In this document: positions 14,728 through 35,497 of the stretch, piece by piece
Position numbering within the stretch: position 1 is the first letter of the stretch
Layout of the letters: each line of letters begins with the position of its first letter
Assembly (NCBI GenBank): GCA_902590435.1
Contig: CACIWU010000010.1
Location: forward strand, 1 to 36,538
Source: an uncultured SAR324 cluster bacterium
GTDB lineage: Bacteria; SAR324; NAC60-12
Length of the DNA: 36,538 bases
Direction: 5' to 3'
Position numbers and translations under genes: made by a program
Notes under the pieces: generated by a model
The model's database searches: none
The model's input: the letters and a program-made list of their open reading frames with translations, nothing else
What the model was told of the DNA's origin: nothing

Positions 14728-15543
14728 CTATTTTATTCCTGCATACATAAATGATTGAATAAATTGTTTCTGAAACAAAATGAAACCCAAAAGCAATGGA
14801 GAGATAGATAATAATGTTGCTGCGGAAATAATTGACCAATTAACACCAGACTCTGGAGCGCCAAATATTGCCAATCCCACGGTGAGAGGTCGAGTATCAA
14901 CCGAATTAGTTATCACTAAAGGCCACAAAAAATTATTCCAGTGATAACTAACTGATACAAGTCCATAAGCCAAATATGTCGGTTTCGCTAATGGGACATA
15001 AACCTTCAATAATATGCCAAATAATTTACATCCTTCCACCCTTGCAGCTTCTTCTAATTCCTTGGGAATTGTTTTAAATGTTTGTCTTAAAAGAAATATA
15101 CCAAATGCACTTGCCATATAAGGTAAGCCAACTCCAAAAATAGTATCTACCAAATTCAAGTTAGTCATTATTTTATAATTTTCAACAATTAGCACTTCCG
15201 GCACAATCATTAATTGAATTAAAATTATTGCAAATAAAATATTACTTCCATAAAAATTGTACCTTGCAAATGCATATGCAGCTAGAGTACAAACTATAAA
15301 TTGGGCTATTAATATTGAAGATACTATTAGAAATGTATTAAAAAAATATCTTGCAAATGGAGCTTGTTCCCACGCTTCGATAAAATTTTCCAAAGTTAAT
15401 GGTGCTAGGACATTAAAATGAATGGCATACTCATTAGGATGGAAAGCTGCCCAAAATGCATAAAGCAAAGGTGAAATCCAAAATAATGCTAAAATCCATG
15501 CACTAAATAATTCGATAGAAAAATTTTTAAAGTATTTTTTCAT
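14728..15543 (-). CDS. Sugar ABC transporter permease (MalG/UgpE type)
   Basis: Inner-membrane permease of 271 residues with about six helices, a partner of the gene at 15540. The EAA loop EEAARVEGCKLFGILLKVYVPLAK is near residues 163-186 and the C-terminus QSFMYAGIK is of the MalG type. Its ATG overlaps the stop of the upstream permease by four bases (ATGA). It is the last gene of the Ugp-like operon, and no GC-rich terminator follows; only an AT palindrome (AGAAAAATTTTTCT, 14716-14729) lies at its end. Confidence 0.9.
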   Translation of the reverse strand: MKKYFKNFSIELFSAWILALFWISPLLYAFWAAFHPNEYAIHFNVLAPLTLENFIEAWEQAPFARYFFNTFLIVSSILIAQFIVCTLAAYAFARYNFYGSNILFAIILIQLMIVPEVLIVENYKIMTNLNLVDTIFGVGLPYMASAFGIFLLRQTFKTIPKELEEAARVEGCKLFGILLKVYVPLAKPTYLAYGLVSVSYHWNNFLWPLVITNSVDTRPLTVGLAIFGAPESGVNWSIISAATLLSISPLLLGFILFQKQFIQSFMYAGIK

Positions 15544-16418
15544 CTATAATGGATCCTTTTATCAAACAATACAAATTGGACGATTGAAACAATTGCTAAA
15601 ATAAGCAGTAAAATTACTGTAAGAGTTGCTGCATATGACGAATCAAGAAAAGAAAATGCAGATTCATAGATATAATAAAGGATCAAATTACTTGCGTTAT
15701 CAGGTCCACCTTTAGTTAATATGAAAAGATGATCTACTAACTTAAATGAATTTAATGTTGCGTTTATAACAACGAACAGAGTTATTGGCATCAGTAAAGG
15801 GAAAGTAATCCTCCGAAAAAAATAATATTTTGATGCTCCTTCTATTTTGGCAGCTTCTTTAAGTTCAGGAGGAATGTTTTGTAAAGCTGCCAAATAAAAT
15901 ATCATAAAAAATCCAGCTTCTTTCCAAATAGTAATTAAAATAAGGCAATTAAGTACAGTTTCTTTATCACCTAACCAATTTTGACTTCCAAAACCTAAAT
16001 TTATAGCTATTTGATCAATAAGACCTATTTCTGGAGTATAGAAAAATAACCAAATATTAGATACTGCAATCATAGGTAAAATTGTCGGAGTAAAGTAAGC
16101 CATTCTAACTAAAACTCTTCCCTTTATTTTACTATCTACAAATAAAGCCATAAGAATTGCTAAAAATACTGAAGGAATGATTGTAGCAACCGCATACCAC
16201 AGATTATTTAATACTGCCTCTAAAAATATTGGGTCATCGAGAGCTAACTCATAATTTTCAAATCCTATAAACTTACTCGGGAATTTTTTTGTACCTGTAC
16301 TAAAAAAACTAGAAATCAACGTTGTAAATGACGGAATATGAGTAAACAATCCCATCAGGATCAATGCTGGAGTAATTAACAACCAAGCATATACTTGTGA
16401 AAGATTATTTTTAAACAT
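15540..16418 (-). CDS. Sugar ABC transporter permease (MalF/UgpA type)
   Basis: Inner-membrane permease of 292 residues, six helices predicted by eye, with the first helix at about 10-32. The EAA loop KEAAKIEGASKYYFFRRITFPLL is near residues 186-208 and the ILTKGGPDNASNLILYYIYE segment is typical of MalF/UgpA-type subunits. It follows the binding-protein gene after a hairpin-containing spacer and is translationally coupled to the MalG-type partner. Confidence 0.9.
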   Translation of the reverse strand: MFKNNLSQVYAWLLITPALILMGLFTHIPSFTTLISSFFSTGTKKFPSKFIGFENYELALDDPIFLEAVLNNLWYAVATIIPSVFLAILMALFVDSKIKGRVLVRMAYFTPTILPMIAVSNIWLFFYTPEIGLIDQIAINLGFGSQNWLGDKETVLNCLILITIWKEAGFFMIFYLAALQNIPPELKEAAKIEGASKYYFFRRITFPLLMPITLFVVINATLNSFKLVDHLFILTKGGPDNASNLILYYIYESAFSFLDSSYAATLTVILLLILAIVSIVQFVLFDKRIHYR

Positions 16419-16473
16419 TCAGGATAATGTTTTCTGGAGGGATTAATAATTTTTTAAGTTAGACTATATTTGC

Positions 16474-16499
16474 GGAAGGTACTAATTGAAGTACCTCCC
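16474..16499 (-). other. Intercistronic hairpin after the Ugp-type binding-protein gene
   Basis: GGAAGGTACT (16474-16483) pairs with AGTACCTCCC (16490-16499) with one mismatch around a six-base loop. It is placed 13 bases after the binding-protein stop, as in the ehuB-ehuC spacer. It probably stabilises the upstream message or lowers read-through into the permease genes. Confidence 0.6.
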
Positions 16500-16512
16500 A
16501 CAATTCAATGAA

Positions 16513-17787
16513 TTATTTATATCTCTTTAAAAGTTTTTCAGCATTTTTTTGTGCGCCTTTTAATGCAGACTTAGGTGTCTTATTTCCTGTGAGAGCAGAC
16601 TGAATTGCATCATCGAGTAATTTTCTGACCCTACCAGTTTGAAAAGTTGATAACTCTGCAGTTGCATAATTCAATTGATCTCTTGCTACAAGAGCAGGAG
16701 GGAATTGTTTAACATAATTTGTTAATGCACTTGTTTGATATGAAGCTGGACTAACTCCCATATATCCGGTGGCCATTGACCAATGAGCAGCTTGTTCAGG
16801 ACTAGTCATAAACTTAATTAAACGCATGGAAGCCTTCTTTTCTGCTTCTGAACTCTTTTTGAAGATATAGAAATTACCTCCACCAGTTGGTGTACCTCTT
16901 CGCTTGCTTGCTGGAAGCATTGCTACTCCAAAGTCGAATTTAGCATTCTTTTTAACAGTTGTTAAATTTCCTGTTGAATGCCACATGATTGCAGTTTTTC
17001 CTTCAAGAAAATTTTTCCTTAAAGTACCCCACTCAATGGTTCCGGAAGGCATTACTTTGTGTTTATTACCCAAATCATGCCAAAATTGAAGGGCTCCTAC
17101 AACGTTAGGGTGATCAAAATATGTTACATTCCCATCTCCGTTCATCAGCACTTGATCATTTTGCATTGTCAATGCACCAAACATCCAATACGGATAACCA
17201 GTAGAAGGAATCATTACACCCCAAGAATTTGTACTACTTTTGATCTTCTTACCATAGGAGACTAATTCGTTCCAAGTATTGGGTGGTTTGTTTGGATTCA
17301 ATCCAGCTTTTCTGAACAAATCCTTATTGTAATACATCACGATAGTAGATCTTTGAAAAGGAATCCCCCATACTTTTCCATCCGTTACTCCATTTTCCAT
17401 TAAGGTTGGATAAAAAGAGTACAACCAGGCTTTATCTTCATAACTAGTAACTAAATCATCAAAAGGTACTATCGCGTCTTGCTCAATCAATTCGTAGATA
17501 TCTATTGAAAACATTACTGATAATTGTGCTGGCTTACCACTTTTTAATGCGGCAAGAGCCTTTATTCTAGCGTCGTTATAATTACCAGCATAAATTGCGT
17601 TTACTTTCACATCTGGATTCTTTCTTTCAAAATCATTTACCATTCCATCTACAATTTTAGTCAGGGGTCCACCTACCGCAACAGGATAATACATATTCAG
17701 TTCAATACTGAATAATTTTGTTGCAAAAGACATAACAAATACGATTGTTGTCAAACCTATAAATGATATTTTAATTTTTTTTAACAT
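16513..17787 (-). CDS. Sugar ABC transporter substrate-binding protein (UgpB-like, family 1)
   Basis: Periplasmic binding protein of 424 residues with a signal peptide at about 1-27. The mature start reads LNMYYPVAVGGPLTKIVDGM, and NPDVKVNAIYAGNYNDA follows, close to the UgpB arrangement. The middle part YYNKDLFRKAGLNPNKPPNTWNELV is the conserved CUT1 binding-protein motif, and GGGNFYIFKKS follows near residue 304. The gene sits between the ATPase and the permeases in one transcript, with hairpins on both sides. A glycerol-phosphate, glycerophosphodiester or sugar ligand is possible; homology by eye does not settle it. Confidence 0.88.
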   Translation of the reverse strand: MLKKIKISFIGLTTIVFVMSFATKLFSIELNMYYPVAVGGPLTKIVDGMVNDFERKNPDVKVNAIYAGNYNDARIKALAALKSGKPAQLSVMFSIDIYELIEQDAIVPFDDLVTSYEDKAWLYSFYPTLMENGVTDGKVWGIPFQRSTIVMYYNKDLFRKAGLNPNKPPNTWNELVSYGKKIKSSTNSWGVMIPSTGYPYWMFGALTMQNDQVLMNGDGNVTYFDHPNVVGALQFWHDLGNKHKVMPSGTIEWGTLRKNFLEGKTAIMWHSTGNLTTVKKNAKFDFGVAMLPASKRRGTPTGGGNFYIFKKSSEAEKKASMRLIKFMTSPEQAAHWSMATGYMGVSPASYQTSALTNYVKQFPPALVARDQLNYATAELSTFQTGRVRKLLDDAIQSALTGNKTPKSALKGAQKNAEKLLKRYK

Positions 17788-17838
17788 ACTTTTTCTCTCT
17801 TAGTTATTTAATTGATAAGGATATATCTCCAAAACATT

Positions 17839-17859
17839 AAGCAAAGACTATCTTTGCTT
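17839..17859 (-). other. Intercistronic hairpin before the Ugp-type binding-protein gene
   Basis: AAGCAAAG (17839-17846) and CTTTGCTT (17852-17859) form a perfect 8-bp stem with a five-base loop, between the ATPase stop and the binding-protein start. No T-tract follows on the - strand, so it is more likely a processing or stabilising element than a terminator. Confidence 0.55.
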
Positions 17860-17879
17860 CTTCAAAAAATTGTATAAAA

Positions 17880-18932
17880 CTAATTATCTCTGATTCCAGA
17901 TTCAAAATCAAAATAATGTGATTTTTTTTTATCCCAAGTTAAAAATACATGATCTGAAATTTCATCAATTATCTTTGATTCAAATCTTGCGTAAATAGCT
18001 TGTTTACCCATTTTTAAAGATAAAACTACATCCGCCCCCTGATAATCTATATCGCTAATCTTGCACTTAATTCCTTTTTTAGAAATTTCAAAATCTTCCG
18101 GTCTAATACCTAAAATTGTTTTTTTAACATATTTTTTATTTACAAAAAATTTTTCATCATCGATTGGAATAAAGTTCTCATCATTATCATTATCGAACTC
18201 CAAATTTATCAAATTCATAGGAGGGTTTCCAATAAACTTAGCTGCGAAAGTATTCTCGGGTTCTTCGTAGAGTATTTTTGGTTTACCTTGTTGAACTATT
18301 TCTCCTTCATTCATTAATACTACTTTATCAGCCATACTCATCGCCTCTGTTTGATCGTGAGTGACATATACTAATGTAATTTTTAAATCTTTCTGAAGGG
18401 AACGAATTTCAGCACGCATTTGGTGTCTCAACTTAGCATCTAAATTTGATAACGGTTCATCCATCAAACAGATTGGATTTTCATTAATAATTGCTCTTGC
18501 TAGTGCAACTCTCTGTCTTTGTCCGCCTGAAAGTTCTGAAGGCTTTCTACCCAATAATTTACTTAAACCAACCTTTTCAGCCACACTAGCTAATTTAGTT
18601 TCTCTATCTTCTTTATTAACTTTTCTAACTTTAAGACCAAATATAATATTTTCTTGTACACTTAGATGTGGGAAAAGTGCATATGACTGAAAGACCATTG
18701 ATATATTTCTTAATGATGGATCCAAATTATTTACATTTTGACCATCTATAATAATTTCACCTGAAGATACTGATTCCAATCCAGCAATTAATCTTAGAGT
18801 GGTCGATTTCCCGCAGCCTGAAGGACCTAACAATACTACGAAATCTCCCTCTTCAATCTCTAAATTAAATTTTTCTACTGCCTTAACATCACCCCAGTAT
18901 TTAGCAACATCATTGAGTTCAATGAAACTCAT
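17880..18932 (-). CDS. Sugar ABC transporter ATP-binding protein (UgpC/MalK type)
   Basis: 350-residue ATPase that drives the Ugp-like importer. Walker A GPSGCGKSTT is near residue 36, the Q-loop is MVFQSYALFPHLS, the signature LSGGQRQR is near residue 134 and Walker B is ICLMDEPLSNLDAKLR, followed by the switch HDQTEAMS. Residues from about 240 form the TOBE/OB regulatory domain typical of CUT1 ATPases. It is the first gene of the operon and is divergent from the GntR regulator gene, which suggests shared control. Confidence 0.92.
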   Translation of the reverse strand: MSFIELNDVAKYWGDVKAVEKFNLEIEEGDFVVLLGPSGCGKSTTLRLIAGLESVSSGEIIIDGQNVNNLDPSLRNISMVFQSYALFPHLSVQENIIFGLKVRKVNKEDRETKLASVAEKVGLSKLLGRKPSELSGGQRQRVALARAIINENPICLMDEPLSNLDAKLRHQMRAEIRSLQKDLKITLVYVTHDQTEAMSMADKVVLMNEGEIVQQGKPKILYEEPENTFAAKFIGNPPMNLINLEFDNDNDENFIPIDDEKFFVNKKYVKKTILGIRPEDFEISKKGIKCKISDIDYQGADVVLSLKMGKQAIYARFESKIIDEISDHVFLTWDKKKSHYFDFESGIRDN

Positions 18933-19118: not shown

Positions 19119-19865
19119 ATGAATGAATTAATTTACTATGATCTAAAGCAAATATCAGGACTTTCAGGTAGTCTCTCTACCCAAGTTTCTAAAGAATTGG
19201 GAAGGCGGATCGTTGCGGGTATATATACAGAAAATGATCTTATTGAAGATGAAAATACCCTTTCAAATAGGTATCAAGTAAGTAGGTCTGTAGTTCGTGA
19301 TGCAGTAAAAATTCTTGTCGGCAAAGGAATGTTAGAGGTTCGTCGTGGTATTGGTACTAGAGTAAAACCAAGAATAGAGTGGGTTTTATTAGATGATGAT
19401 GTACTAGCATGGCATCAATCTGCACCCTTTAGAATAGATTTTTTTAACAAATTAATGGAAATTAGACTAATTATTGAGCCTAATGCTGCTCGTTGGGCAT
19501 GTGAAAGGGGTTCTAATGAAAAAATAAGAAAAATTGTATTAGCGCAAAAAAAAATGGAAGATGAAAAAGGATCTATTGAAGATTTCGTAGTTGCTGATGC
19601 TCAATTTCATCAATCAATAATTCGAGCAGCCGATAATGAAATTTTAGAATCTATGGAAGGTGTTATTATTTCAGCCTTACTAAATAGTATTCGTATAACA
19701 AACAAAGACCCTCGTGAAAACACGGATTCTATTCCATTTCACAGCGAGGTTACCGACGCAATAGTAAAACGCGATCCTGATCTTGCAGAATTAAGTATGA
19801 AAAAGTTGCTAGGAGATGCTGAAAAACGCTTCAAAAAAGAATCTACTATTTTTAAATTAAATTAA
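19119..19865 (+). CDS. GntR-family (FadR/FCD subfamily) transcriptional regulator, DgoR-like
   Basis: 248 residues. A winged helix-turn-helix occupies about 15-75, with LSNRYQVSRSVVRDAVKILVGKGMLEVRRGIGT holding the recognition helix and wing. An all-helical FCD ligand domain follows (about 95-240) with metal-type residues in DAQFHQ and PFHSEV. The linker PRIEWVLLDDDVLAWH is typical of DgoR and related galactonate and sugar-acid repressors. It heads the operon that contains dgoK and dgoA and is probably released by a 2-keto-3-deoxy acid or aldonate. The dehydratase starts 16 bases after its stop. Confidence 0.88.
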   Translation: MNELIYYDLKQISGLSGSLSTQVSKELGRRIVAGIYTENDLIEDENTLSNRYQVSRSVVRDAVKILVGKGMLEVRRGIGTRVKPRIEWVLLDDDVLAWHQSAPFRIDFFNKLMEIRLIIEPNAARWACERGSNEKIRKIVLAQKKMEDEKGSIEDFVVADAQFHQSIIRAADNEILESMEGVIISALLNSIRITNKDPRENTDSIPFHSEVTDAIVKRDPDLAELSMKKLLGDAEKRFKKESTIFKLN

Positions 19866-19881
19866 AAATATTAAGTCTCTA

Positions 19882-21051
19882 ATGAAAATAACTAATATAG
19901 TAAGTCATATTCTAAAACACGACCTTGGTGAGGAACTTGGTTATTCTCAACAGTATTACAGTAAACGCAGCGCACACTTAGTGGAAATACAAACTGATGA
20001 AGGAATTGTAGGATGGGGAGAGTGTTTCGGTCCGGGTAATGTAGCTATAGCGAACAAATGTATTGTAGAAAAAGTTATACAACCGTTGATTATTGATTAT
20101 GACCCATTAGACCGTGAAGTCATCTGGCATAGAGTTTATAATCTACTTAGAGACCACGGACAAAAAGGAATGGTATTACAAGCACTTTCTGGAATTGATA
20201 TAGCTCTTTGGGACATAGGCGGTAAAATCACAGGACAATCTATTTCAAAAATGATTGGAGGTCGACATAGAGAAAAAGTAGCTGTATATGGTTATGGAAT
20301 GATGTTGAGAAAGGAAAATATAGACTCATTAACCTCTCGTTTTGCTGAAGAGGCAGCTACTATAAAAACTTCCGGTTATGTCGCAACAAAAATGAAAATT
20401 GGCTTAGGTATAGAAAAAGATTTAAAATTAGCTGAAGCAGTTCGGAAGGGTATAGGAGATGATTTTAAATTTATGGTAGATGCAAACCATTGTTACACTT
20501 TAGGAGATGCACTATATGTGGGTCGTGGATTAGAGGAATTGAATGCCTTTTGGTTTGAAGAACCTTTAGCTCCTGAAGATTGTATTGGTTATAAAGAATT
20601 GCGCAAAAAACTGGATATCAAAATTGCTGGAGGTGAAACGGAATTTACTCGCTGGGGCTGGAGAAACTTGTTAGAAAATAGGTGTTTAGATATAGCTCAA
20701 CCTGAAGTTTGTGCCCTAGGAGGGATTTCTGAATATGTTAAGGTAATTACTCTAGCTCATTCTTACTTTGTCCCAGTAGTAAATCATGTCTGGGGCTCAG
20801 ATATAGCTGTTGCTATTAATTTGCAACTGCTAGCCGCAATGCCACCTTTGCCGGGTGGCCTTTATCCCGCTGAACCAATTTTGGAGTTTGATACAACTTA
20901 TAGTAGGTTTAGGGATGATTTATTGACAAACCCACTTGATATTAAGGGGCAGGTCAAAAAAAATGATGGATATGTTTCGATTCCAGATTTTCCAGGTATT
21001 GGTGTTGAACCTGATCGAGATTTCATCAAAAAATATACCATTTCGGAATGA
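19882..21051 (+). CDS. Enolase-superfamily sugar-acid dehydratase (galactonate-dehydratase-like role)
   Basis: 389 residues, capping domain then TIM barrel. The K170-M-K172 motif (ATKMKIG), metal ligands D200 (VDANH), E226 (WFEEP) and E252 (AGGETE) and the general base H302 (VVNHVWGSD) are all present. The residue normally Asp next to that His is E275 (AQPEVCALGG). It belongs to the mandelate-racemase subgroup that dehydrates aldonates. With dgoK and dgoA downstream, it most likely makes 2-keto-3-deoxygalactonate or an epimer from galactonate or a related aldonate. It is not close enough by eye to E. coli DgoD to use that name. Confidence 0.87.
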   Translation: MKITNIVSHILKHDLGEELGYSQQYYSKRSAHLVEIQTDEGIVGWGECFGPGNVAIANKCIVEKVIQPLIIDYDPLDREVIWHRVYNLLRDHGQKGMVLQALSGIDIALWDIGGKITGQSISKMIGGRHREKVAVYGYGMMLRKENIDSLTSRFAEEAATIKTSGYVATKMKIGLGIEKDLKLAEAVRKGIGDDFKFMVDANHCYTLGDALYVGRGLEELNAFWFEEPLAPEDCIGYKELRKKLDIKIAGGETEFTRWGWRNLLENRCLDIAQPEVCALGGISEYVKVITLAHSYFVPVVNHVWGSDIAVAINLQLLAAMPPLPGGLYPAEPILEFDTTYSRFRDDLLTNPLDIKGQVKKNDGYVSIPDFPGIGVEPDRDFIKKYTISE

Positions 21052-21100
21052 ACCGTATTGGTATAAAATTTAATAATTAACCTTAAATTAAGGATAAAAA

Positions 21101-22159
21101 ATGAAAAATATTAAAAGGTTCCTTGCAATAGGATTCATAATGATTTTTTCTTATGTACCAATCGCAACTGCAAAGGATCTAGTAGCTTTATTGCTACCAG
21201 AAAATGTAAACCCTAGATGGGAAAGTCAAGATGCAGCTTTCTATGTGAAGCATATGAAAAAATTGGCATCAAATATTAATGTTGAAGTATTTAATGCTAA
21301 CAATGATACCGCAGCCCAACAAAGACAAGCAGAACAAGCTTTATCGCGTGGTGCTAAAGTACTAGTAGTCATTCCAATTGATGGTGAAGCTGCTGCTGTA
21401 ATTGCTGATATGGCTGCACAAGAAGGAGTACCAACAATAGCATACGATCGTATGGTACAATCAAAGAATACTAGTTTCTGGGTACAGGCAGATTTAAGGG
21501 CTTCAGGTCGTTCTCAAGCTGCACATATTGTAGCTAATACGAAGAATGGAGACACTCTTGTAATGCTTAAAGGTTCGCCAACTGATCCAAATGCTCCAAC
21601 AATTTATCACGGACAAATGGACGTTTTAAGTTCTTTATTTCAGTCAGGAGAACGAGTTCTTGGATATGAAAACTGGACTCAAGGGTGGGATCCAGCTGTT
21701 GCAAGACGTTCAATGGATCAGGCCCTTACAAAGCTTAACAATAATGTTCAAGGTGTAGTATCTTCCAATGACGGAAACGCAGGAGCAGCAGTAGCTGCAC
21801 TAGCAGAACAGGGTATGGCTGGAAAAGTTCCCGTTAGTGGATTAGACTGTACAGTTCAGGCATTACAGTTGATTCTTCTGGGACAAATGACACAAAGTGT
21901 TTGGAGAGATTTTAATTTAATGGCTGAAGCAACAGCAAAAGCAACAGTTGCTCTTGTTAATGGTAGTTCTCTTGATGGAGTGGTCAAGGGTACCTCACCA
22001 GCAAACTCTGCAGGTAAGGAAGTACCCATGGTTCCGGTAGGATTTTATAATGCAGTAGGAGAAAAGGGTGTTCAATATGTTATAGACAACGATCCTTCTA
22101 TTTCAAAATCTGATGTTTGTAAAGGAGAAGCATCTAAAACTTCTTTTTGCAAAAGTTAA
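21101..22159 (+). CDS. Sugar ABC transporter substrate-binding protein (XylF-like)
   Basis: Periplasmic sugar-binding protein of 352 residues in the CUT2 class, with a signal peptide of about 24 residues ending PIATA. ALLLPENVNPRWESQD, NNDTAAQQRQAEQAL and VVIPIDGEAAAVIADMAAQEGVPTIAYDRMV match the XylF type. VVSSNDGNAGAAVAALAEQG is the second ligand segment. The C-terminus has two cysteines (CKGEASKTSFC) that may form a disulfide. An AAGGA ribosome binding site lies six bases before the ATG, inside the palindrome CCTTAAATTAAGG (21081-21093). The ligand is an aldose; xylose or galactose are candidates, given the operon. Confidence 0.9.
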   Translation: MKNIKRFLAIGFIMIFSYVPIATAKDLVALLLPENVNPRWESQDAAFYVKHMKKLASNINVEVFNANNDTAAQQRQAEQALSRGAKVLVVIPIDGEAAAVIADMAAQEGVPTIAYDRMVQSKNTSFWVQADLRASGRSQAAHIVANTKNGDTLVMLKGSPTDPNAPTIYHGQMDVLSSLFQSGERVLGYENWTQGWDPAVARRSMDQALTKLNNNVQGVVSSNDGNAGAAVAALAEQGMAGKVPVSGLDCTVQALQLILLGQMTQSVWRDFNLMAEATAKATVALVNGSSLDGVVKGTSPANSAGKEVPMVPVGFYNAVGEKGVQYVIDNDPSISKSDVCKGEASKTSFCKS

Positions 22160-22168
22160 TATGGGAAA

Positions 22169-22181
22169 TTTCCTTAGGAAA
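22169..22181 (+). promoter_or_regulatory. Hairpin covering the ribosome binding site of the ATPase gene
   Basis: TTTCC-TTA-GGAAA forms a five-base-pair hairpin whose 3' arm contains the probable Shine-Dalgarno bases (TAGGAA), six bases before the GTG at 22187. The preceding gene has a similar CCTTAAATTAAGG element at its own ribosome binding site. The effect may be lower translation of the ATPase than of the binding protein. Confidence 0.35.
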
Positions 22182-22186
22182 ATATA

Positions 22187-22993
22187 GTGAAGGATAAAAA
22201 AGAGATGGTTGGAAAAGATTCCCAACCATCTCCACATTTAATAGTTGAAAAAGTTAGCAAAAGTTTCGGAGCTGTTGAAGCCTTAAAAAACGTCAACTTT
22301 GAAGTAAAGATTGGTGAGGTTATGGGGCTAGTAGGTGATAATGGAGCTGGAAAATCTACTCTAATGAAAATAATTGCTGGAGCAGCAAAGAGTGATACTG
22401 GTAAATTTATCTTGGATGGTACTGAAATTAATATCAACTCACCACAAGATTCTTCAGATCTTGGGATTTCCGTTGTTTATCAAGATCTAGCTTTATGTGA
22501 GAATTTAAATGTTGCATCCAATTTGTTCCTAGGTCAAGAACCTGTATATGGTGGATGGTTTAAATTGTTACCTCGATTTATTAGACCAATGAATTCGTTA
22601 ATCATGGAGCAAAAAACTAAAGAAGCTATTGAAAAACTTAAGGTCCAAACACTAGGTTCTGTTTTAACAAAAGTAAGTAATTTATCCGGCGGTCAAAGGC
22701 AAGCTATTGCTATTGCCCGTGCTACAAGAGTAAATTCTACTGTTGTCTTGTTAGATGAACCAACTGCCGCTTTGGGTGTTGCTCAGACAAGAGAAGTTTT
22801 AGATGTCATAAAGCAGCTTAGAAAAACTGGACATGCCGTTGTTTATATCTCCCACAATCTTAGAGATGTATTTGAGGTATGTGATCGTATCACCGTGCTA
22901 CGACATGGACAAAATGTAGCTATCTTTGATTCTAAAAAGTCTTCTCCAGAAGATATTGTTTCCGCCATGACTCTTGGAGAAAATGATGCTTAA
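22187..22993 (+). CDS. Sugar ABC transporter ATP-binding protein (single-domain, FrcA-like)
   Basis: 268-residue ATPase with one nucleotide-binding domain, unlike the two-domain XylG or RbsA (about 500 residues). Walker A GDNGAGKSTL is near residue 50, the signature LSGGQRQA is near residue 166 and Walker B is VVLLDEPTAALG. Single-domain partners are known for XylF/FrcB-type systems such as FrcBCA. The GTG start has TAGGAA in front; ATG at 22205 is a possible later start. The 3' end overlaps the permease gene. Confidence 0.9.
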   Translation: MKDKKEMVGKDSQPSPHLIVEKVSKSFGAVEALKNVNFEVKIGEVMGLVGDNGAGKSTLMKIIAGAAKSDTGKFILDGTEININSPQDSSDLGISVVYQDLALCENLNVASNLFLGQEPVYGGWFKLLPRFIRPMNSLIMEQKTKEAIEKLKVQTLGSVLTKVSNLSGGQRQAIAIARATRVNSTVVLLDEPTAALGVAQTREVLDVIKQLRKTGHAVVYISHNLRDVFEVCDRITVLRHGQNVAIFDSKKSSPEDIVSAMTLGENDA

Positions 22994-24155
22994 TTCAATT
23001 TTTAAAAATTTTCAAAGAATAAGAGGAACTGGACTAGGGGCTGTTGCTCCAGTACTTTTTGCATTGGCAGCTATATGGATTTACTTTGGATTTACTGAAC
23101 CGGCATTTTTAAGTGGCCGTAATTTTTATTATCTCTTCATGCAAAGTGCTGTAGTTGGAACTCTAGCTGTCGGGATAACTGTCGTATTAATTATTGGTGA
23201 TATTGACTTATCTGTCGCAGCTACTTCAGGAGTATGTGCTGCTATTTTAGCAGTACTTTCTACAAATTTCGGTTTATCGCCCATTATAGCATGTCTTTGC
23301 GCAATTATAGCTGGAATAATAATGGGATTGGTACAAGGTGTATTGGCTGCTTGGGTTAGAATACCGTCTTTTGTAGTAACACTAGCTGGACTTTTGGGTT
23401 TCCAAGGATTGATGTTAAAGATCTTAGGTATTCATGGTGCCATAAATGTGAGAGATCCCTTTATAAGGGGTATAACTACTACCAACATCACTCCTATCTT
23501 AGGTTGGATTGGTTTTCTTATAAGTATATTAATTTTTGTTTGGATTATATATAGAAATAATACAAACCGTAGAAAAATGGGTTTAGAATTAACACCATTT
23601 TTTTCTGAATTAGGAAGGGTTGTATTTTTTGTAGTATTCGCTGGTTCTGCTGTAGCTACTCTTAATTCATATCGAGGTATACCTTTGGTTGTTATTTTGT
23701 TATTAGGACTAACTTTTTTTATAAACTGGATAACTAAATCTACTCCTTTTGGACGTTCACTTTTTGCAGTAGGTGGGAATTCTGAATCAGCTCGTAGAGC
23801 AGGAATTTCGATTCAAAGTATAAGGGTTGCAGCTTTTGGAATAGTCGGAGGAATGGCTGCAATTGGAGGTATAATTGGTGCTTCTAGATACGCATCAGTT
23901 TCTTTTAATGCCTTTGCTGGAGGCCCTTTACTACTAGAAGCAATCGGCGCCGCGGTTATTGGAGGAACTTCTCTTTTTGGTGGAAGAGGCAGTGTATGGA
24001 ATGCTATATTGGGTGCATTAGTTATAGGTTCATTGGGAAATGGACTTGACCTTTCTGGAGCAAGTGCAGCTGATAAATTGATGTTTTCTGGTGGAATTTT
24101 ATTATTAGCTGTATCAATTGATGCTCTGTCTAGAAAAAACCAAAGTAACAAATAA
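22986..24155 (+). CDS. Sugar ABC transporter permease (XylH-like)
   Basis: CUT2-class permease of about 390 residues with ten or so hydrophobic helices, longer than RbsC and similar to XylH. It has GDIDLSVAATSGVCAA near residue 75 (the conserved GxIDLS motif), AWVRIPSFVVTLAGLLGFQGL, the GRSLFAVGGNSESARRAGI loop near residue 265 and LEAIGAAVIGGTSLFGGRG near 315. GGAGA lies five bases before the ATG at 22986; an ATG at 22983 and a TTG at 22974 are open in the same frame. The start overlaps the end of the ATPase gene (ATGATGCTTAA), so translation is coupled. Confidence 0.9.
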   Translation: MLNSIFKNFQRIRGTGLGAVAPVLFALAAIWIYFGFTEPAFLSGRNFYYLFMQSAVVGTLAVGITVVLIIGDIDLSVAATSGVCAAILAVLSTNFGLSPIIACLCAIIAGIIMGLVQGVLAAWVRIPSFVVTLAGLLGFQGLMLKILGIHGAINVRDPFIRGITTTNITPILGWIGFLISILIFVWIIYRNNTNRRKMGLELTPFFSELGRVVFFVVFAGSAVATLNSYRGIPLVVILLLGLTFFINWITKSTPFGRSLFAVGGNSESARRAGISIQSIRVAAFGIVGGMAAIGGIIGASRYASVSFNAFAGGPLLLEAIGAAVIGGTSLFGGRGSVWNAILGALVIGSLGNGLDLSGASAADKLMFSGGILLLAVSIDALSRKNQSNK

Positions 24156-24221
24156 ATTAAGGTAGTCTTTATAAACTATTTTAACAAAAATATATAAATA
24201 AAAAAATCAAATTAGCTTCAA

Positions 24222-24683
24222 ATGTGGAATATAGAAGAGAGGAATCTTCTTAAACTAATACTTAAAGAGTTAATACCTGCTAGTGAAGATGGGAAAATTC
24301 CGTCTGCTGGATTGACGAATGTAATAAATTATCTAGAAAAAAAATCAAAAGAAGAACTAAGTGTAAAAAAACTTTTTAATGTCGGGATTTTAAGAGTTAA
24401 AAATTTCGTGATTTCAACGAAAAAAGATATAAATTATATTAATTCAAAAGATACTATTTTGTTCTTAAAAATACTTGAAAATGAGGAACCATTTTTCTTT
24501 AAAGAATTTTTGAAACATACTTACATGGGTTACTATAGTGAACCAACTGTTAGACCCTATTTCGGCGTTTCTTCTAATCCACCTCATCCAATAGGTTATG
24601 AAGTACCTCTCGAAGAATCTAATTTTTTAGAAAGTCTTGTAGAGCCTGTAAAAAAAAGAGGTGTTTGCTATAGAAAGTGTTGA
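24222..24683 (+). CDS. Gluconate 2-dehydrogenase subunit 3-like small subunit
   Basis: 153-residue protein. The N-terminal part LLKLILKELIPASEDGKIPSAG and the C-terminal TYMGYYSEPTVRPYFGVSSNPPHPIGYE are characteristic of the small (gamma) subunit of FAD-dependent gluconate and glucose dehydrogenases. Well-studied members carry a Tat signal that exports the complex; this one has none, and an in-frame TAG at 24213-24215 excludes a longer N-terminus. It overlaps or abuts the GMC subunit gene. It should assemble with the flavoprotein, probably in the cytoplasm. Confidence 0.85.
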   Translation: MWNIEERNLLKLILKELIPASEDGKIPSAGLTNVINYLEKKSKEELSVKKLFNVGILRVKNFVISTKKDINYINSKDTILFLKILENEEPFFFKEFLKHTYMGYYSEPTVRPYFGVSSNPPHPIGYEVPLEESNFLESLVEPVKKRGVCYRKC

Positions 24684-24685
24684 AG

Positions 24686-26314
24686 ATGCAAAAAAATGAA
24701 ATTACAAAAAACCCTAAAGTAGATGTTTTGATTGTTGGAGCAGGTGCTTCTGGTGCCGCAATTGCTCACTCTCTAACTGAGTTGGGAGTAAGTATTACAT
24801 GCCTTGAACAAGGTAATTGGGTAGATCACACGAATTTTCCGAGTACTAAGCCTGATTATGAATTGCATCGTTATTCTGATTTCAGCTGTGATCCTAATGT
24901 TCGTAAGCAGCCACAGGACTATCCAATAAATTCAGATGAGTCTCCAATAACTCCCGTAAATTATAACGCCGTTGGTGGTTCAACAATTAATTATCTTGGA
25001 CATTGGCCTAGATTTCATCCATCTGATTTTCGAACTAGATCACTCGATGGCGTTGGAAATGACTGGCCAATAGATTATGAAACTTTAGAGCCTTTTTATG
25101 ACATTAATAGTAATATCATGGGTGTATCTGGTCTTTCAGGGAATCCAGCATATCCTTATTATAAAACCACACTACCTCCTATCACAATTGGGAAATTAGG
25201 ACAAATATTAGCAAAAGGATTCAATAAGCTTGGATGGCATTGGTGGCCTTCTGATACAACAATTCTTAGTCAAGAATATGAAGGTCGCTCTAAATGTGTA
25301 AATGCTGGAACATGTGACCTTGGCTGCGCAGCTGGAGCAAAAGCAAGTGTAGATATTACTTATTGGCCATTGCTTAAACGAAAGAGAGTGGAACTAAGAA
25401 CACAGTGTAGAGTTCGAGAGGTCACAATTAATAATGACGGTATGGCTAAGGGAGTTCTCTACTATGATTCAGAAGGGAATTTACAGGAACAAAAAGCAGA
25501 AATAGTAGTGATGGCTTGCAATGGAATAGGAACTCCAAGAATATTACTAAACTCAAAATCTAAGTTGTTCCCAGAAGGTATTGCAAATCGAAGTGGACTG
25601 ATTGGGAAAAATCTTATGTTTCACCCACTTTCTGGAGTGGTTGGCATTTTCGATGAGCCTATGGATGGTTTTAAAGGTCCTATGGCTTGTAGTATTCTAA
25701 GTCAAGAATTTTATGAAACAGATAAATCGCGTGATTTTGTCAGAGGTTATGGATTACACAGTGGCAGATATACTACTCCAATGACATATGCTCTTGGTGG
25801 ATATGGAACGGATAAATTAATACCATGGGGTAATGAACATAGAAAAAGTATGGATGAGTATCCTTACTTAGCTGGGCTTACTGTAGTTACTGAAGATCTA
25901 GCAAGAGAAAGCAATGCAGTAACTCTTGATTCAGGCCTTACAGATTCAAATGGTATCCCTGCGCCAAAAATTTCATATAAGGTTGATGAAAATACAAAAA
26001 AAATGCTTGTTCATGGCGAAGAAAGAGCAAAAGAAGCTTTATTAGCTGCCGGGGCTAAAAAAATTATTTCTGCAGGAGGAGACGTATGGTGGCGTGCTGG
26101 ATGGCATCAAATGGGAACTGCACGTATGGGTAATAACCCAGAAAATTCTGTAGTTAATTCTTGGGGTCGTTGCCATGATGTTAAAAATCTTTTTATTGTT
26201 GATGGAAGTATTTTTGTGACCGCAGGAGCAGTAAATCCAACCTGTACTATTCAAGCTTTATCTTTATATATAGGCGACAGTATAAAAAAAAATGTCGAAA
26301 ATTTATTTGATTAA
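24686..26314 (+). CDS. GMC-family FAD/Fe-S sugar dehydrogenase, catalytic subunit
   Basis: Flavoprotein of about 542 residues. The FAD motif LIVGAGASGAAIAHSLTELG ends with LEQG. The C-terminal catalytic part WHQMGTARMGNNP supplies the active-site His and GAVNPTCTIQALS the second residue (Asn). Cysteines at 204, 210 and 214 (CVNAGTCDLGC) have the C-x5-C-x3-C spacing of the 3Fe-4S site of bacterial FAD glucose dehydrogenases. No signal peptide. No cytochrome c subunit gene follows. With the small subunit it would oxidise an imported aldose (or aldonate) and pass electrons to an unknown acceptor. GTG at 24677 is an alternative start; its first codons overlap the previous stop. Confidence 0.88.
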   Translation: MQKNEITKNPKVDVLIVGAGASGAAIAHSLTELGVSITCLEQGNWVDHTNFPSTKPDYELHRYSDFSCDPNVRKQPQDYPINSDESPITPVNYNAVGGSTINYLGHWPRFHPSDFRTRSLDGVGNDWPIDYETLEPFYDINSNIMGVSGLSGNPAYPYYKTTLPPITIGKLGQILAKGFNKLGWHWWPSDTTILSQEYEGRSKCVNAGTCDLGCAAGAKASVDITYWPLLKRKRVELRTQCRVREVTINNDGMAKGVLYYDSEGNLQEQKAEIVVMACNGIGTPRILLNSKSKLFPEGIANRSGLIGKNLMFHPLSGVVGIFDEPMDGFKGPMACSILSQEFYETDKSRDFVRGYGLHSGRYTTPMTYALGGYGTDKLIPWGNEHRKSMDEYPYLAGLTVVTEDLARESNAVTLDSGLTDSNGIPAPKISYKVDENTKKMLVHGEERAKEALLAAGAKKIISAGGDVWWRAGWHQMGTARMGNNPENSVVNSWGRCHDVKNLFIVDGSIFVTAGAVNPTCTIQALSLYIGDSIKKNVENLFD

Positions 26315-26376
26315 AATAAAATTTAATTTAAATTAAAACATAGATTTAACTAATTAAAAGTAATTAAAATAAAAAA

Positions 26377-27315
26377 GTGATAAAGCCATGTCTGATAGCT
26401 CTCGATTGGGGTAGCACGCGTTTTAGAGCTTGGTTGCTAGATTCCAAAGGAATTGAGATAGATAGTTTAGATGAAGAATTTGGCATACTAAATATAAATG
26501 ATTCTCAATACATAAATGTATTTGATCAACTTCTTGGTTCTTGGATTAAAGAATTTGGGAGTATTCCAGTAATTGCTTCTGGAATGATTGGAAGTCGTCA
26601 AGGATGGATAGAAGCACCGTACTTAGATTGCCCTGCTGGACCTGAACAGTTAGCACAAAACTTAACTTTTTTAAATATAAATACTGAGTTAATTAATAAT
26701 CCAATTTCAATGGCTATTGTTCCTGGAATAAAAGTCTTTGAGAATGGTATTCCAGATGTGATGCGTGGTGAAGAGACACAAGTAGCTGGACTATTATGGA
26801 GCAATCATCAAGTTGATCTATGCATTTTCCCTGGTACTCATAGTAAGTGGATTTTATTAAATGAAGGTAGAATAGAAAATTTTATGACATTTATGACAGG
26901 TGAAATTTTTTCTTTAATGGCTAAGCACAGTATCGTTAACAGGTTAATGGATGGTACATCATTCAAAAGAGATGACTTTATAATTGGATGTAAGCAGTCA
27001 TTAAATAGCTCATATGGATTGCTTAAATCGATCTTTAGTGCACGAACTATGGGTCTTTTTGATAAAGTTATCCCTAAAGGGATTTATTCTTATCTTTCAG
27101 GAATAATCATTGGGAATGAAATTAAAGATGGCATAAAAATCTTTTATAATAATTCCGGTGAAAAAGGGAAAAAAATTATTTTGAATGGAGAAAACTCTTT
27201 ATGTAATCTTTATAAAATAGCTTTTGAATTAGCTGATGTAAAAATTAACTTCGAAAAAAACAATGTTGTTGCTAAAGGTTTGTTTCAGATTGCTAATACA
27301 GCTTTTTTGAAATAA
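26377..27315 (+). CDS. dgoK: 2-dehydro-3-deoxygalactonokinase
   Basis: 312-residue sugar-acid kinase. It phosphorylates 2-keto-3-deoxygalactonate on O6. The N-terminal phosphate motif IALDWGSTRFRAWLLD and the segments VIASGMIGSRQGWIEAPYLDCPAG, VMRGEETQVAG and IFPGTHSKWI are all characteristic of DgoK. The start is GTG at 26377; the ATG at 26388 is out of frame. The gene is four bases from dgoA and in the same operon as the dehydratase and importer, which completes a De Ley-Doudoroff type route. Confidence 0.93.
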   Translation: MIKPCLIALDWGSTRFRAWLLDSKGIEIDSLDEEFGILNINDSQYINVFDQLLGSWIKEFGSIPVIASGMIGSRQGWIEAPYLDCPAGPEQLAQNLTFLNINTELINNPISMAIVPGIKVFENGIPDVMRGEETQVAGLLWSNHQVDLCIFPGTHSKWILLNEGRIENFMTFMTGEIFSLMAKHSIVNRLMDGTSFKRDDFIIGCKQSLNSSYGLLKSIFSARTMGLFDKVIPKGIYSYLSGIIIGNEIKDGIKIFYNNSGEKGKKIILNGENSLCNLYKIAFELADVKINFEKNNVVAKGLFQIANTAFLK

Positions 27316-27319
27316 TCAG

Positions 27320-27970
27320 ATGGATATAGCACAAAAAAATATAATAAACGAATTGCCTTTAATTGCTATATTACGCGGTATTAGACCTGAAGAATGTATA
27401 GATATTGGCTGTGAACTTTTTAAAGTTGGATTCCGTATTATTGAAATACCTCTCAATTCTCCTGAAGCTTTTAAGAGTATTGAGAAACTAGCTCTAAAAT
27501 TAAAGAATGGAGTTATAATTGGAGCAGGAACAATTTTAAATATGAAACAACTTAAAATACTTTCTGATGCTGGAGGGCAGTTAGCCGTTATGCCTCACAC
27601 TGATTTAAAAATTGTCGAGATGGCAAAAAAGTTAAATCTTATTTGTTTCCCTGGAGTAGCGTCACCAACTGAAGCGATTTCTGCATTGGATGCCGGTGCT
27701 GATGGATTGAAAATATTCCCTGCAGAAATGATTATTCCTAAAGTTCTTAAATCTTGGAAAGCCATTTTGCCTAAGGATACAATGCTTTTTCCAGTTGGAG
27801 GAATTGAACCAGAATCGATAGCGCCTTATGTTTTGGCAGGAGCTACAGGGTTTGGAATTGGTTCAGCACTTTACAAACCAGGCAAAAATGTATTAGACGT
27901 TGTTAAAAATGGTAGAGATTTTATAAAAAGCTGGGAAAAAATTAAATTTTCATTGAATGAGAGCAAATAA
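27320..27970 (+). CDS. dgoA: 2-dehydro-3-deoxy-6-phosphogalactonate aldolase
   Basis: 216-residue class I aldolase that splits 2-keto-3-deoxy-6-phosphogalactonate into pyruvate and glyceraldehyde-3-phosphate. R19 (AILRGI), E42 (IEIPLNSP), the Schiff-base K131 (GLKIFPAE) and GAGTIL near residue 68 are present at the positions expected from E. coli DgoA (E37 and K126). It follows dgoK with a four-base gap and is the last gene of the operon, followed by a terminator-like hairpin. A KDPG aldolase is the closest alternative, but the neighbour DgoK favours the galactonate form. Confidence 0.92.
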   Translation: MDIAQKNIINELPLIAILRGIRPEECIDIGCELFKVGFRIIEIPLNSPEAFKSIEKLALKLKNGVIIGAGTILNMKQLKILSDAGGQLAVMPHTDLKIVEMAKKLNLICFPGVASPTEAISALDAGADGLKIFPAEMIIPKVLKSWKAILPKDTMLFPVGGIEPESIAPYVLAGATGFGIGSALYKPGKNVLDVVKNGRDFIKSWEKIKFSLNESK

Positions 27971-28037: not shown

Positions 28038-28086
28038 ACGGGCGGTGCCTTTATAACACCCGTATTTATTTTTCTCTCTTTTTTAA
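28038..28086 (+). terminator. Candidate terminator of the dgo operon
   Basis: ACGGG (28038-28042) pairs with CCCGT (28059-28063), with further TG/CA pairing inside, and a T-rich tail (28064-28084) follows. It lies 68 bases after the dgoA stop. The stem is GC-rich compared with its surroundings. An alternative pairing GGTG/CACC exists in the same segment. Confidence 0.55.
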
Positions 28087-28087
28087 G

Positions 28088-28115
28088 GTAGGGGGCTACA
28101 TCTGTAGCTCTCTAT
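28088..28115 (+). other. Second hairpin downstream of dgoA, rich in G-U pairs
   Basis: GTAGGGGGCTAC (28088-28099), loop ATCT, GTAGCTCTCTAT (28104-28115). On the + strand all 12 positions pair if G-U is allowed; on the - strand the G-U pairs become A-C mismatches, so the structure belongs to the + strand transcript. There is no clean T-tract after it. It could be a backup terminator or part of a small RNA or 3' UTR. Confidence 0.4.
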
Positions 28116-28229
28116 CTTTAATTACTTTGGCAGAAATATAAATTTATAGTGGGATAATTAAATTTAGTTTTTCAATTCAATTTTAATTAACGATCTTCAA
28201 AATAAAGAAATAGCAACATTATTAAAGAA

Positions 28230-29301: not shown

Positions 29302-30234
29302 TTAATAACCTTTTGAAGGATTAATTATATTCAATAATGATTTATTTTTTGAATATCTTTTAAAATTATCTAAGAATAAATATACTTTATCTTGTATTTC
29401 ATTAGTATATCCACCCCCTGTATGTTGAGTAAGTATAAGGTTTGGGCAATTCCATAGTTGACTATTTTCATGTAAAGGCTCTTCTGATGTAACGTCTAAA
29501 ACTGCGCCTTTAATTGTTTTATTTTTAAGCTTTTCTATTAAATTATTTTCATCAATCAAATCACCTCTACCAACATTAACAAGAATAGAATGTTTTGATA
29601 ATGAATTTAACATAGTTTTGTTAAAAAGCATTTTAGTTGTTTTTGTGCCTGGTAATGCACAAACAATTATTTCGGCTAACTTTAATTTGTTAAGAATAAA
29701 TTCTTTTGTTGAATGTGAGTCTATAAATGAACATTTGCAATCAAAAGGTTTCAAATATTTTGAAAATTCTTTGTTGATTGAACCTTTACCAAAAAATAAA
29801 ACTTTTTTATTGTTTAAGATTTCTAATTTCTTTCTGATGGGATCTCCAACCCATTTCTTTTCTTTTTTTAATAATGGGAAAAGATCTGTCCCCCTATAGA
29901 GTGCAAGTACTCCTGCTAGTGCGGTTTGCGCAACTTGACTGGCAAAAAAACTCTTTAAATTAGTTATTATTACGTCGTTTTTTAAAAAGTTTTTTCTTAT
30001 TTCTGAATATTCACCAAAACCAGTAGATTCTAATTGAACCCATTTTAATTTACTACTTTGTGGTATCCAGTTTGGAGGAATATTTCCAAACACAATCTCA
30101 CATTTAAGAAAATTTTTATCAGCAGTTTTATTAAATACTAGACTAGAAAAATATAAATTATGTTTTTTTAAATTGTTTTGGATTATTTTTTTTTCTGAAC
30201 CATCTAGTTCAAAAGCTATAAAAATATTCATCAA
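29302..30234 (-). CDS. D-isomer-specific 2-hydroxyacid dehydrogenase
   Basis: 310-residue NAD(P)-dependent reductase. The nucleotide-binding domain has a GKGSIN variant of GxGxxG (149-154). The catalytic triad is present as R223 (NVGRGDLID), E252 (TSEEP) and H271 (TQHTGGG), with LDV at 246-248. The family interconverts 2-oxo acids and D-2-hydroxy acids, for example glyoxylate, hydroxypyruvate or 2-oxoglutarate-type substrates. It is the last gene of the operon with the NMT1-type importer, DHDPS-family lyase, dehydratase and aldehyde dehydrogenase, so it may reduce an oxo-acid fragment of the pathway. Confidence 0.9.
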   Translation of the reverse strand: MMNIFIAFELDGSEKKIIQNNLKKHNLYFSSLVFNKTADKNFLKCEIVFGNIPPNWIPQSSKLKWVQLESTGFGEYSEIRKNFLKNDVIITNLKSFFASQVAQTALAGVLALYRGTDLFPLLKKEKKWVGDPIRKKLEILNNKKVLFFGKGSINKEFSKYLKPFDCKCSFIDSHSTKEFILNKLKLAEIIVCALPGTKTTKMLFNKTMLNSLSKHSILVNVGRGDLIDENNLIEKLKNKTIKGAVLDVTSEEPLHENSQLWNCPNLILTQHTGGGYTNEIQDKVYLFLDNFKRYSKNKSLLNIINPSKGY

Positions 30235-30245
30235 AATCTTTATTA

Positions 30246-31727
30246 TTAGTGACTAATCCATATAGTTTTTGTCTGAAGATATTGATTCAAGGCTTCGGTA
30301 CCTTGATCTCTACTCAAAGAACCCGATTGCTTGTAACCACCAAAAGGAGTTTTAATGTCTCCCTCTGAAAATGTATTTATGGAGATTGTTCCACAAGGGA
30401 GACTTTTTGCCATATGAAATGCTTCATTAATATCTTGAGAAAATACACTAGCATGAAGTCCATATTTAGAGTTTCTAGCTATTTTTAAAGCATCTTCAGT
30501 ATTATTGACGGTAAGGATCCCAAGAACTGGACCAAATATTTCATCTTGGGCAATGGTCATATCCTCTGTTAAATTATCAAAAAGAGTTGGTTTTGCAAAA
30601 AAACCATTTTGATCACTCTCAGACACTCCGCCATACAAAAGAGTTGCTCCTTCATCAATACCTTTTTGAATAAAACCATCAACTGTTGCCAAATGTTTTT
30701 TAGATATCATTGAACCCATATTTGTTTCTGAATCAAGTGGGTCGCCAACTTGAATATCCTTTACTTTTTTTATAACTTTCTCCAAAAATTCTTCTTTTAC
30801 ATTACTGTGAATAATTTGACGCATATTTGCTGAACAGTTTTGACCACCATTCCAAAAAGCTGAATCTATAGCATTGTTTATTAAATCATCCGTTATTTTT
30901 GCATCACCTAAAACTATAAAAGGGCTTTTGCCCCCCATTTCAAGGCCAACAGTTTTCAAATTACTTTCACCAGAATATTTTAAAAAATAACCCCCTACTT
31001 CTGTTGAGCCCGTGAACGATACTGCATCAACGTCATTGTGTCTCCCTAGTGCTTCGCCAACATCACCAAAACCTGGTAAAACATTAAATACACCATCTGG
31101 AATTCCTGCCTCCTTAGCAATTTGTGCAACCCTAATTGCTGTTAAAGGGGTGTCTTCTGCCGGTTTTATTATTAATGAGCAACCAGCAGCTAATGCAGGA
31201 GCTGATTTCCAAACTGCCATCATTAAAGGGAAATTCCAAGGAACAACTCCAGCAACGACTCCTATAGGTTCTTTAACAATTAAACTAGTGATTGATGGTT
31301 CTGTAGGGCAAACTTTTCCAAACACTTTATCTATCAATTCTCCATACCATTGAAAGTGCATAGGCGCATCATTAGCAACTTCATCCACACAATCACCAAT
31401 TAATTTTCCTGTATCAACACATTCAAGAACTGAATTTTCTTCGCCATGTTGTCTCAATAATTCCGCAAATTTAAGTAAAATTTCTTTTCTAAATTCTGGA
31501 GATGCTCTCGACCAAATTCCACTTTCAAAAGCTTTTCTTGAAGACTTAACGGCTAAATCTACATCTTTGAAATTACATTTAGCTACTGAACAAAGAGTTT
31601 CTCCAGTAGCTGGATTTATATTTTCAAATTTTTGACCATCAATTGCATCAACATATTTACCATCAATGAATGCTCTACCTTCAAAATTTAATTTACTAGC
31701 AATTGATTTATAGTTTGGTGTTTCCAT
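30246..31727 (-). CDS. NAD(P)-dependent aldehyde dehydrogenase (PuuC/betaine-aldehyde type)
   Basis: 493-residue aldehyde dehydrogenase with all catalytic residues: N165 (PWNFP), K188 (IKPAE), E263 (LEMGGKSP) and C298 (GGQNCSA). The C-terminus PFGGYKQSGSLSRDQGTEALNQYLQTKTIWI is close to the PuuC group that oxidises gamma-aminobutyraldehyde derivatives. In this operon, after a DHDPS-family lyase, it is likely to oxidise the aldehyde released in the lyase step; 2-oxoglutarate semialdehyde is one candidate. It could also serve the FAH-family enzyme at 4286. Confidence 0.9.
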   Translation of the reverse strand: METPNYKSIASKLNFEGRAFIDGKYVDAIDGQKFENINPATGETLCSVAKCNFKDVDLAVKSSRKAFESGIWSRASPEFRKEILLKFAELLRQHGEENSVLECVDTGKLIGDCVDEVANDAPMHFQWYGELIDKVFGKVCPTEPSITSLIVKEPIGVVAGVVPWNFPLMMAVWKSAPALAAGCSLIIKPAEDTPLTAIRVAQIAKEAGIPDGVFNVLPGFGDVGEALGRHNDVDAVSFTGSTEVGGYFLKYSGESNLKTVGLEMGGKSPFIVLGDAKITDDLINNAIDSAFWNGGQNCSANMRQIIHSNVKEEFLEKVIKKVKDIQVGDPLDSETNMGSMISKKHLATVDGFIQKGIDEGATLLYGGVSESDQNGFFAKPTLFDNLTEDMTIAQDEIFGPVLGILTVNNTEDALKIARNSKYGLHASVFSQDINEAFHMAKSLPCGTISINTFSEGDIKTPFGGYKQSGSLSRDQGTEALNQYLQTKTIWISH

Positions 31728-31755
31728 TTTCCTCTTCTTTTATAATTATAAATTA

Positions 31756-33905: not shown

Positions 33906-33922
33906 ATTCCATTATATACTTC

Positions 33923-35484: not shown

Positions 35485-35497
35485 TTGGAAAACTTTA

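Follow-up and report, generated by a model that had tools for sequence, protein, structure and literature searches.

A candidate 3,6-anhydro-D-galactose operon with an ABC importer and a GMC flavoprotein entry module in a SAR324 cluster bacterium

3,6-Anhydro-D-galactose (D-AHG) is a sugar of red-algal carrageenan, on which Pseudoalteromonas carrageenovora is reported to grow (PMC6262041). Structures are available for two enzymes of the corresponding dau pathway, namely the aldehyde dehydrogenase DauA of Pseudoalteromonas (6PNU/6POP; PMC6923384) and DauB, the 3,6-anhydro-D-galactonate cycloisomerase of Zobellia (5OLC; PMC5698469), and the DauA of Zobellia is described as inactive on D-galactose (PMC5698469). 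Among FAD-dependent sugar dehydrogenases, the glucose dehydrogenase of Burkholderia cepacia (FAD-GDH) is reported to hold a 3Fe-4S cluster by Cys212, Cys218 and Cys222, with Asn475 as a proposed sugar contact (PMC6719666). Here, we describe a nine-gene operon at positions 19119-27970 of a 36,538-nucleotide stretch (the window; contig CACIWU010000010.1) from an uncultured SAR324 cluster bacterium. This operon could encode a D-AHG pathway of the dau type, in which an ABC importer and an entry module composed of a GMC flavoprotein and its small subunit would replace DauA; we put the probability of this reading at slightly below one half. The assignment follows from the match of two operon products, an MR_MLE enzyme and a regulator, to a carrageenan locus of P. 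carrageenovora and from the presence of DauA in 30 of the 43 genomes carrying such an operon.

The second gene of the operon (19882-21051) encodes the MR_MLE enzyme of the enolase superfamily, which is 63% identical to the protein at the dauB position of the P. carrageenovora locus but 26% identical to the galactonate dehydratase encoded about 6 kb away in the same locus. Hence, a cycloisomerase fits better than the dehydratase assumed in an earlier note on this DNA, which had been made from the sequence alone and had read the operon as a De Ley-Doudoroff type route from an aldose to pyruvate. The P. carrageenovora gene lies between an aldehyde dehydrogenase gene and a DgoK gene, which is the dauABCD order. 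Four plasmid records match the window enzyme at 60-80% identity, those of Roseibium, Paracoccus, Sulfitobacter and P. carrageenovora. Its best match in the PDB is the galactarolactone cycloisomerase AtGCI (4GGB), followed by DauB (5OLC). The catalytic residues K172, D200, E226, E252 and H302 are conserved, as are seven positions described for AtGCI and DauB as catalytic or as part of the pocket. The arabinonate and galactonate dehydratase models of NCBI are also matched, far under their cut-offs (NF010624, 170 bits vs 311). Furthermore, the first gene (19119-19865) encodes a GntR/FCD-type regulator (Pfam GntR and FCD) that shares 60% and 56% identity with the two GntR proteins encoded in the carrageenan locus of P. 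carrageenovora.

All nine reading frames are open and located on the + strand, with intergenic gaps of -20 to +66 bases. The regulator and MR_MLE genes are followed by those of a CUT2 importer, consisting of an XylF-like and probably periplasmic sugar-binding protein (21101-22159; Peripla_BP_4, best PDB match the D-xylose-binding protein 3m9w), a single-domain ATPase (22187-22993; ABC_tran) and a permease (22974-24155; BPD_transp_2, best model GguB). At the distal end are the 2-keto-3-deoxygalactonate kinase DgoK/DauC (26377-27315; DGOK, 279 bits; 36% identical to DauC of P. carrageenovora) and the 2-keto-3-deoxy-6-phosphogalactonate aldolase DgoA/DauD (27320-27970; KDPG/KHG aldolase, NF006600 above cut-off; 43% identical to DauD of P. 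carrageenovora), both as described earlier. Family searches found neither an NAD-dependent galactose dehydrogenase nor a lactonase among the nine genes, bearing out the absence of a lactonase gene already remarked, and no SMP-30 gene is located within the operon. Carrageenase, sulfatase and TonB genes are likewise absent from it.

The entry module is placed between the importer and DgoK genes. The closest PDB relatives of the GMC flavoprotein (24677-26314; GMC oxidoreductase family) are the B. cepacia FAD-GDH (6A2U; 6a2u_B, E 2.8e-53) and the Gluconobacter fructose dehydrogenase (7W2J). Its residues C207, C213 and C217, which form a C-x5-C-x3-C motif, align with the B. cepacia Cys212, Cys218 and Cys222 and are kept in 85 of 85 aligned GMC relatives; a 3Fe-4S cluster is predicted as probable. 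The B. cepacia pair His476/Asn519 corresponds to His477/Asn520 of the window protein. On the other hand, the position of Asn475 is occupied by Trp476, a tryptophan in all 85 relatives, and the flavin-linked His105 aligns with Asn105, none of the 85 having a histidine there. The structural model of this protein is modest (pLDDT 71) and was used for family assignment only. The small subunit (24222-24683) has no Pfam match itself, but its orthologues, 32-39% identical to it, match Gluconate_2-dh3 (PF13618), such as that of locus L033 (38% identity; 45.1 bits vs a cut-off of 23.4). These data support the earlier description of a GMC flavoprotein with this cysteine motif and a small subunit. The predicted model of the latter is confident (pLDDT 85), with the first helix beginning at residue 4; Foldseek gave no match to this fold with an E value below 3, the best VIA-align Z was 3.0, and a PDB profile search returned no relative.

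Reading by eye revealed neither a signal peptide nor a twin-arginine translocation (Tat) signal in 31 small subunits, and no signal peptide in the GMC protein; export of the GMC enzyme, which according to the earlier note would refute its proposal, is not indicated. Since both proteins lack a signal peptide and the importer genes are adjacent, oxidation would follow import and occur in the cytoplasm, in agreement with the order of events suggested before. We infer that the GMC protein could be the first-step enzyme of the pathway.

In the proposed scheme, the CUT2 ABC transporter would capture free D-AHG in the periplasm and carry it into the cell. The cytoplasmic GMC flavoprotein, carrying FAD and probably a 3Fe-4S cluster, would with its small subunit oxidise the hydrated aldehyde to 3,6-anhydro-D-galactonate, doing the job of DauA, the usual NADP-linked aldehyde dehydrogenase, and the electrons would pass to an acceptor encoded outside the operon. 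The DauB-like MR_MLE enzyme would then open the anhydro ring to give 2-keto-3-deoxy-D-galactonate, which DgoK would phosphorylate and DgoA would then split into pyruvate and glyceraldehyde 3-phosphate. GMC enzymes such as choline oxidase can oxidise hydrated aldehydes to acids. Such direct formation of the acid, without a lactone, would explain the missing lactonase; indeed, a dau-type pathway does not need one, and its absence is expected. The operon has no gene for a cytochrome c electron-transfer subunit, and, beyond the genes named here, none is conserved beside the GMC/small-subunit pair in relatives. As our best guess, this pair serves as an alternative anhydrogalactose dehydrogenase in the cytoplasm, travelling with the CUT2 importer. 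A broader proposal is more tentative: the GMC dehydrogenase, with a signal-less and repurposed hitchhiker subunit, may be a respiratory-chain-linked D-AHG dehydrogenase that makes DauA dispensable, entry modules may be swapped around a DauB-DgoK-DgoA core, and bacteria without genes for carrageenan degradation, one small phylum included, may scavenge free D-AHG.

A scan of named genomes provided 80 loci with a GMC relative, to which four loci of the window's phylum were added. Both the GMC and the MR_MLE proteins exceed 60% identity in 42 of these 80 + 4 loci. All three importer genes are present in 39 of the 42, the exceptions being two contig ends (L048, L058) and one real absence in its contig (L054), and the small subunit is matched in 41, L058 beginning inside the GMC gene. 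Matches to DgoK and DgoA (E 1e-20 or better) occur in 11 and 6 of the 42, respectively, and a full set of DauA, DauB, DgoK and DgoA in one operon is found in L055, L063, L066, L077 and a Sulfitobacter plasmid. This recurrence in dozens of genomes, looked for as the earlier note had advised, indicates that the run of nine same-strand genes with short gaps is more than chance and confirms it as a real operon. In the GMC tree, the window groups in one clade (support 100/98) with four sister-genus genomes that also have the operon. Two further sister-genus genomes (G028:C71, G029:C12) have truncated copies of operon genes where their contigs end, so that all six show some part of it. Among 16 congeners of the window genome, neither a close GMC relative nor a DauB gene was found. 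The G+C content of the contig is 0.32, vs 0.31-0.34 in eight other stretches of the window genome; its tetranucleotide profile is closer to these stretches than to congeners, but AT-rich alphaproteobacterial loci are almost as near (0.71-0.82), so that contamination of this metagenome-assembled genome, a reading that we did not adopt, keeps some probability. Other GMC relatives (L081-L122, except L083 and L120) lie outside sugar operons, mostly followed by a small-subunit gene and keeping the Trp-His pair; L100 and L113 have two GMC copies each. The neighbourhoods of GMC relatives outside sugar operons share no gene that would point to a substrate.

An aldehyde dehydrogenase of a single family is encoded in 27 of 44 clustered loci, nearly always between the GMC and MR_MLE genes. 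Its best PDB match is DauA (6PNU/6POP, 586 bits vs 305 for the next), and it is 56% identical to DauA of P. carrageenovora. DauA was searched for in 45 genomes, of which L081 and L082, having a GMC gene without the operon, were set apart. Of the 43 remaining, 30 possess an orthologue of DauA (61-100% identity), mostly within the operon, and the other 13 show nothing above 37% among the matches listed (E 1e-80 or better). The latter include the window genome (54% complete), its relatives G017 (93%) and G024 (99%), the isolate Pelagibius sp. Alg239-R121 (L044) and L062, a metagenome-assembled genome with a 3.6-Mb chromosome contig; these DauA-less genomes keep the GMC enzyme and the signal-less small subunit. 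Both GMC and DauA are encoded in Roseibium album CECT 5095 and Ruegeria meonggei CECT 8411. On the GMC tree (43 rows), the presence of DauA requires at least five gains or losses, at least three of them forced by supported branches, and the window clade, which lacks DauA, is sister to all others.

Because these loci had been found by their GMC gene, the constant presence of GMC in them is worthless as evidence, and surveys with the MR_MLE enzyme and the binding protein were therefore added. The former (to E 1e-130, around draw centres that were themselves GMC carriers) gave matches in 8 of 385 Alphaproteobacteria, 37 of 390 Rhodobacterales, 5 of 369 Gammaproteobacteria and 7 of 52 genomes of the window's phylum. 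As G159 was counted in two of the four surveys, this corresponds to 56 distinct genomes; 51 were examined for GMC and DauA, the already known G000 (the window genome), G017, G024, G027 and G030 being left out. Most of them carry the MR_MLE gene with neither GMC nor DauA. The binding protein, in turn, was found in 5 of 380 Rhodobacterales genomes, all five with GMC, which indicates that importer and GMC travel together. In the MR_MLE tree, the contexts with GMC, with tripartite ATP-independent periplasmic (TRAP) transporters and with DauA only interleave (19 changes): the MR_MLE core is combined with different entry modules, either ABC importer and GMC, DauA, or acid import. In nine loci (L197, L199, L201-L204, L207, L212, L213), close DauB-like homologues adjoin TRAP transporter parts, and some of these loci also contain galactarate/altronate and IlvD/EDD dehydratases. 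Two Rhodobacterales loci (L198, L214) are perhaps of the carrageenan type: besides DauA and DauB, they encode a protein 57% identical to the galactonate dehydratase of P. carrageenovora, and sulfatases and lactonases are weakly matched there.

Several observations weigh against the D-AHG reading. The main difficulty is the coexistence of GMC and DauA, usually as neighbours, in 30 genomes, for which a simple replacement of one by the other does not account; redundancy, different kinetics or an earlier GMC step are possible causes. In the last case, GMC would act one step before or beside the pathway, converting an imported precursor (an anhydro-alditol, a glycoside or another derivative) to D-AHG, with DauA or another aldehyde dehydrogenase making the acid. 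This is unlikely but deserves consideration, as the two genes are neighbours in most relatives, like those of successive steps, alcohols are common substrates of GMC enzymes, and at least five aldehyde dehydrogenase genes occur in the window genome, one located 2.3 kb downstream of the operon. However, the product of that nearby gene (30246-31727) is 31% identical to DauA and resembles PuuC, the 13 DauA-less genomes show no aldehyde dehydrogenase above 37% to DauA among the matches listed, and several lineages would each require a substitute enzyme.

The substrate can be questioned as well. The dauB-position protein of P. carrageenovora was named by locus and homology, and its reported identity to the Zobellia DauB, the one that was assayed, is 40% (PMC6262041). 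A search of 12 genomes, selected from carriers and their kin, found GH127, which releases D-AHG, in one of them, and GMC relatives at 56-65% identity occur in other bacteria outside such operons. Moreover, only 9 of the 51 DauB-query genomes have GMC (71% or more) and 11 have DauA (60% or more). Since TRAP components lie near the DauB gene in 9 of 20 contexts viewed (the others being DauA without GMC in 3, GMC in 1 and other kinds in 7), DauB-like enzymes may serve another acid, and the assignment to D-AHG is less secure for the whole DauB-like clade than for DauA-bearing operons. It is quite unlikely, in our estimation, that the substrate of this clade, the window enzyme included, is some other sugar acid, taken up directly through TRAP transporters by certain bacteria, and that the operon degrades another hexose or derivative converging on 2-keto-3-deoxygalactonate. 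The interleaved contexts on the DauB tree and the lack of both dehydrogenases in most DauB-positive genomes surveyed would suit such a substrate, but DauA orthologues of 60% or more in 30 of 43 GMC-operon genomes argue for D-AHG, and TRAP could import anhydrogalactonate itself. As for the De Ley-Doudoroff oxidation of galactose or another aldose, with GMC as galactose dehydrogenase, the MR_MLE enzyme as aldonate dehydratase and the SMP-30 protein (3243) as lactonase, DgoK and DgoA fit it, the GMC family includes FAD-dependent glucose and fructose dehydrogenases, and aldonate dehydratase models are matched, though far below cut-off. It is nevertheless improbable: the proposed sugar contact Asn475 is replaced by tryptophan throughout, the operon has no galactose dehydrogenase or lactonase, relatives carry the DauA aldehyde dehydrogenase, and the 63% vs 26% identities of the MR_MLE enzyme led us to reject this route.

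The surroundings of the operon contain other sugar-related genes. At 313-5470 are a permease, an MR_MLE enzyme like gluconate/galactonate dehydratases (1134), a short-chain dehydrogenase/reductase (2250), the SMP-30 gene (3243, - strand) and a member of the FAA hydrolase family (4286). The SMP-30 gene more likely belongs to this group, a separate sugar-acid route, which speaks against the earlier suggestion that it could serve as the lactonase of the pathway. Directly upstream of the operon and divergent from it, a CUT1-like ABC importer (14728-18932, - strand) comprises a binding protein, two permeases and an ATPase. Downstream, a terminator-like hairpin with a 15-pair stem (28085-28118, + strand) is a consensus match only, and the signal is weak, 7 such sites being observed in the region vs 5.0 expected in shuffles. 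Facing the nine-gene operon, another sugar-acid operon (29302-36498, - strand) contains genes for a 2-hydroxyacid dehydrogenase, the PuuC-like aldehyde dehydrogenase, an MR_MLE enzyme, a DHDPS-family protein and an NMT1-type ABC importer.

If the D-AHG reading is true, this sugar would be handled by a different enzyme class with an ABC importer, and the use of carrageenan sugar would extend to marine bacteria without the polymer-degrading genes looked for. Such bacteria would now be annotated as galactose or galactonate users, and the annotation of DauB-like genes as galactonate dehydratases would have to be corrected. In the literature, titles and the starts of abstracts contained no link between D-AHG and either GMC enzymes or ABC importers, which is not proof of absence.

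Compared with described systems, the window operon has DgoK and DgoA in common with the De Ley-Doudoroff pathway, but lacks its NAD-dependent galactose dehydrogenase and lactonase and has a DauB-like MR_MLE enzyme. The latter shares the fold family and catalytic residues of AtGCI, which belongs to another clade and context, homologues at 42% identity adjoining kdgD. With the FAD-GDH and fructose dehydrogenase complexes, the entry module shares the GMC fold, the cysteine motif, the His/Asn pair and the adjoining small-subunit gene. Since these complexes have a Tat signal on the small subunit and a cytochrome c subunit, both missing here, the window complex is not a standard FAD-GDH, and it further differs from the B. 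cepacia enzyme by a tryptophan instead of Asn475 and an asparagine instead of the flavin-linked His105. With the dauABCD pathway of Zobellia galactanivorans and of Pseudoalteromonas carrageenan loci, the operon shares a DauB-like cycloisomerase, a 2-keto-3-deoxygalactonate kinase and a 2-keto-3-deoxy-6-phosphogalactonate aldolase, and its GntR regulator resembles the P. carrageenovora one. The lack of DauA sets it apart from a standard dauABCD operon; a CUT2 ABC importer and a GMC flavoprotein with its small subunit are present.

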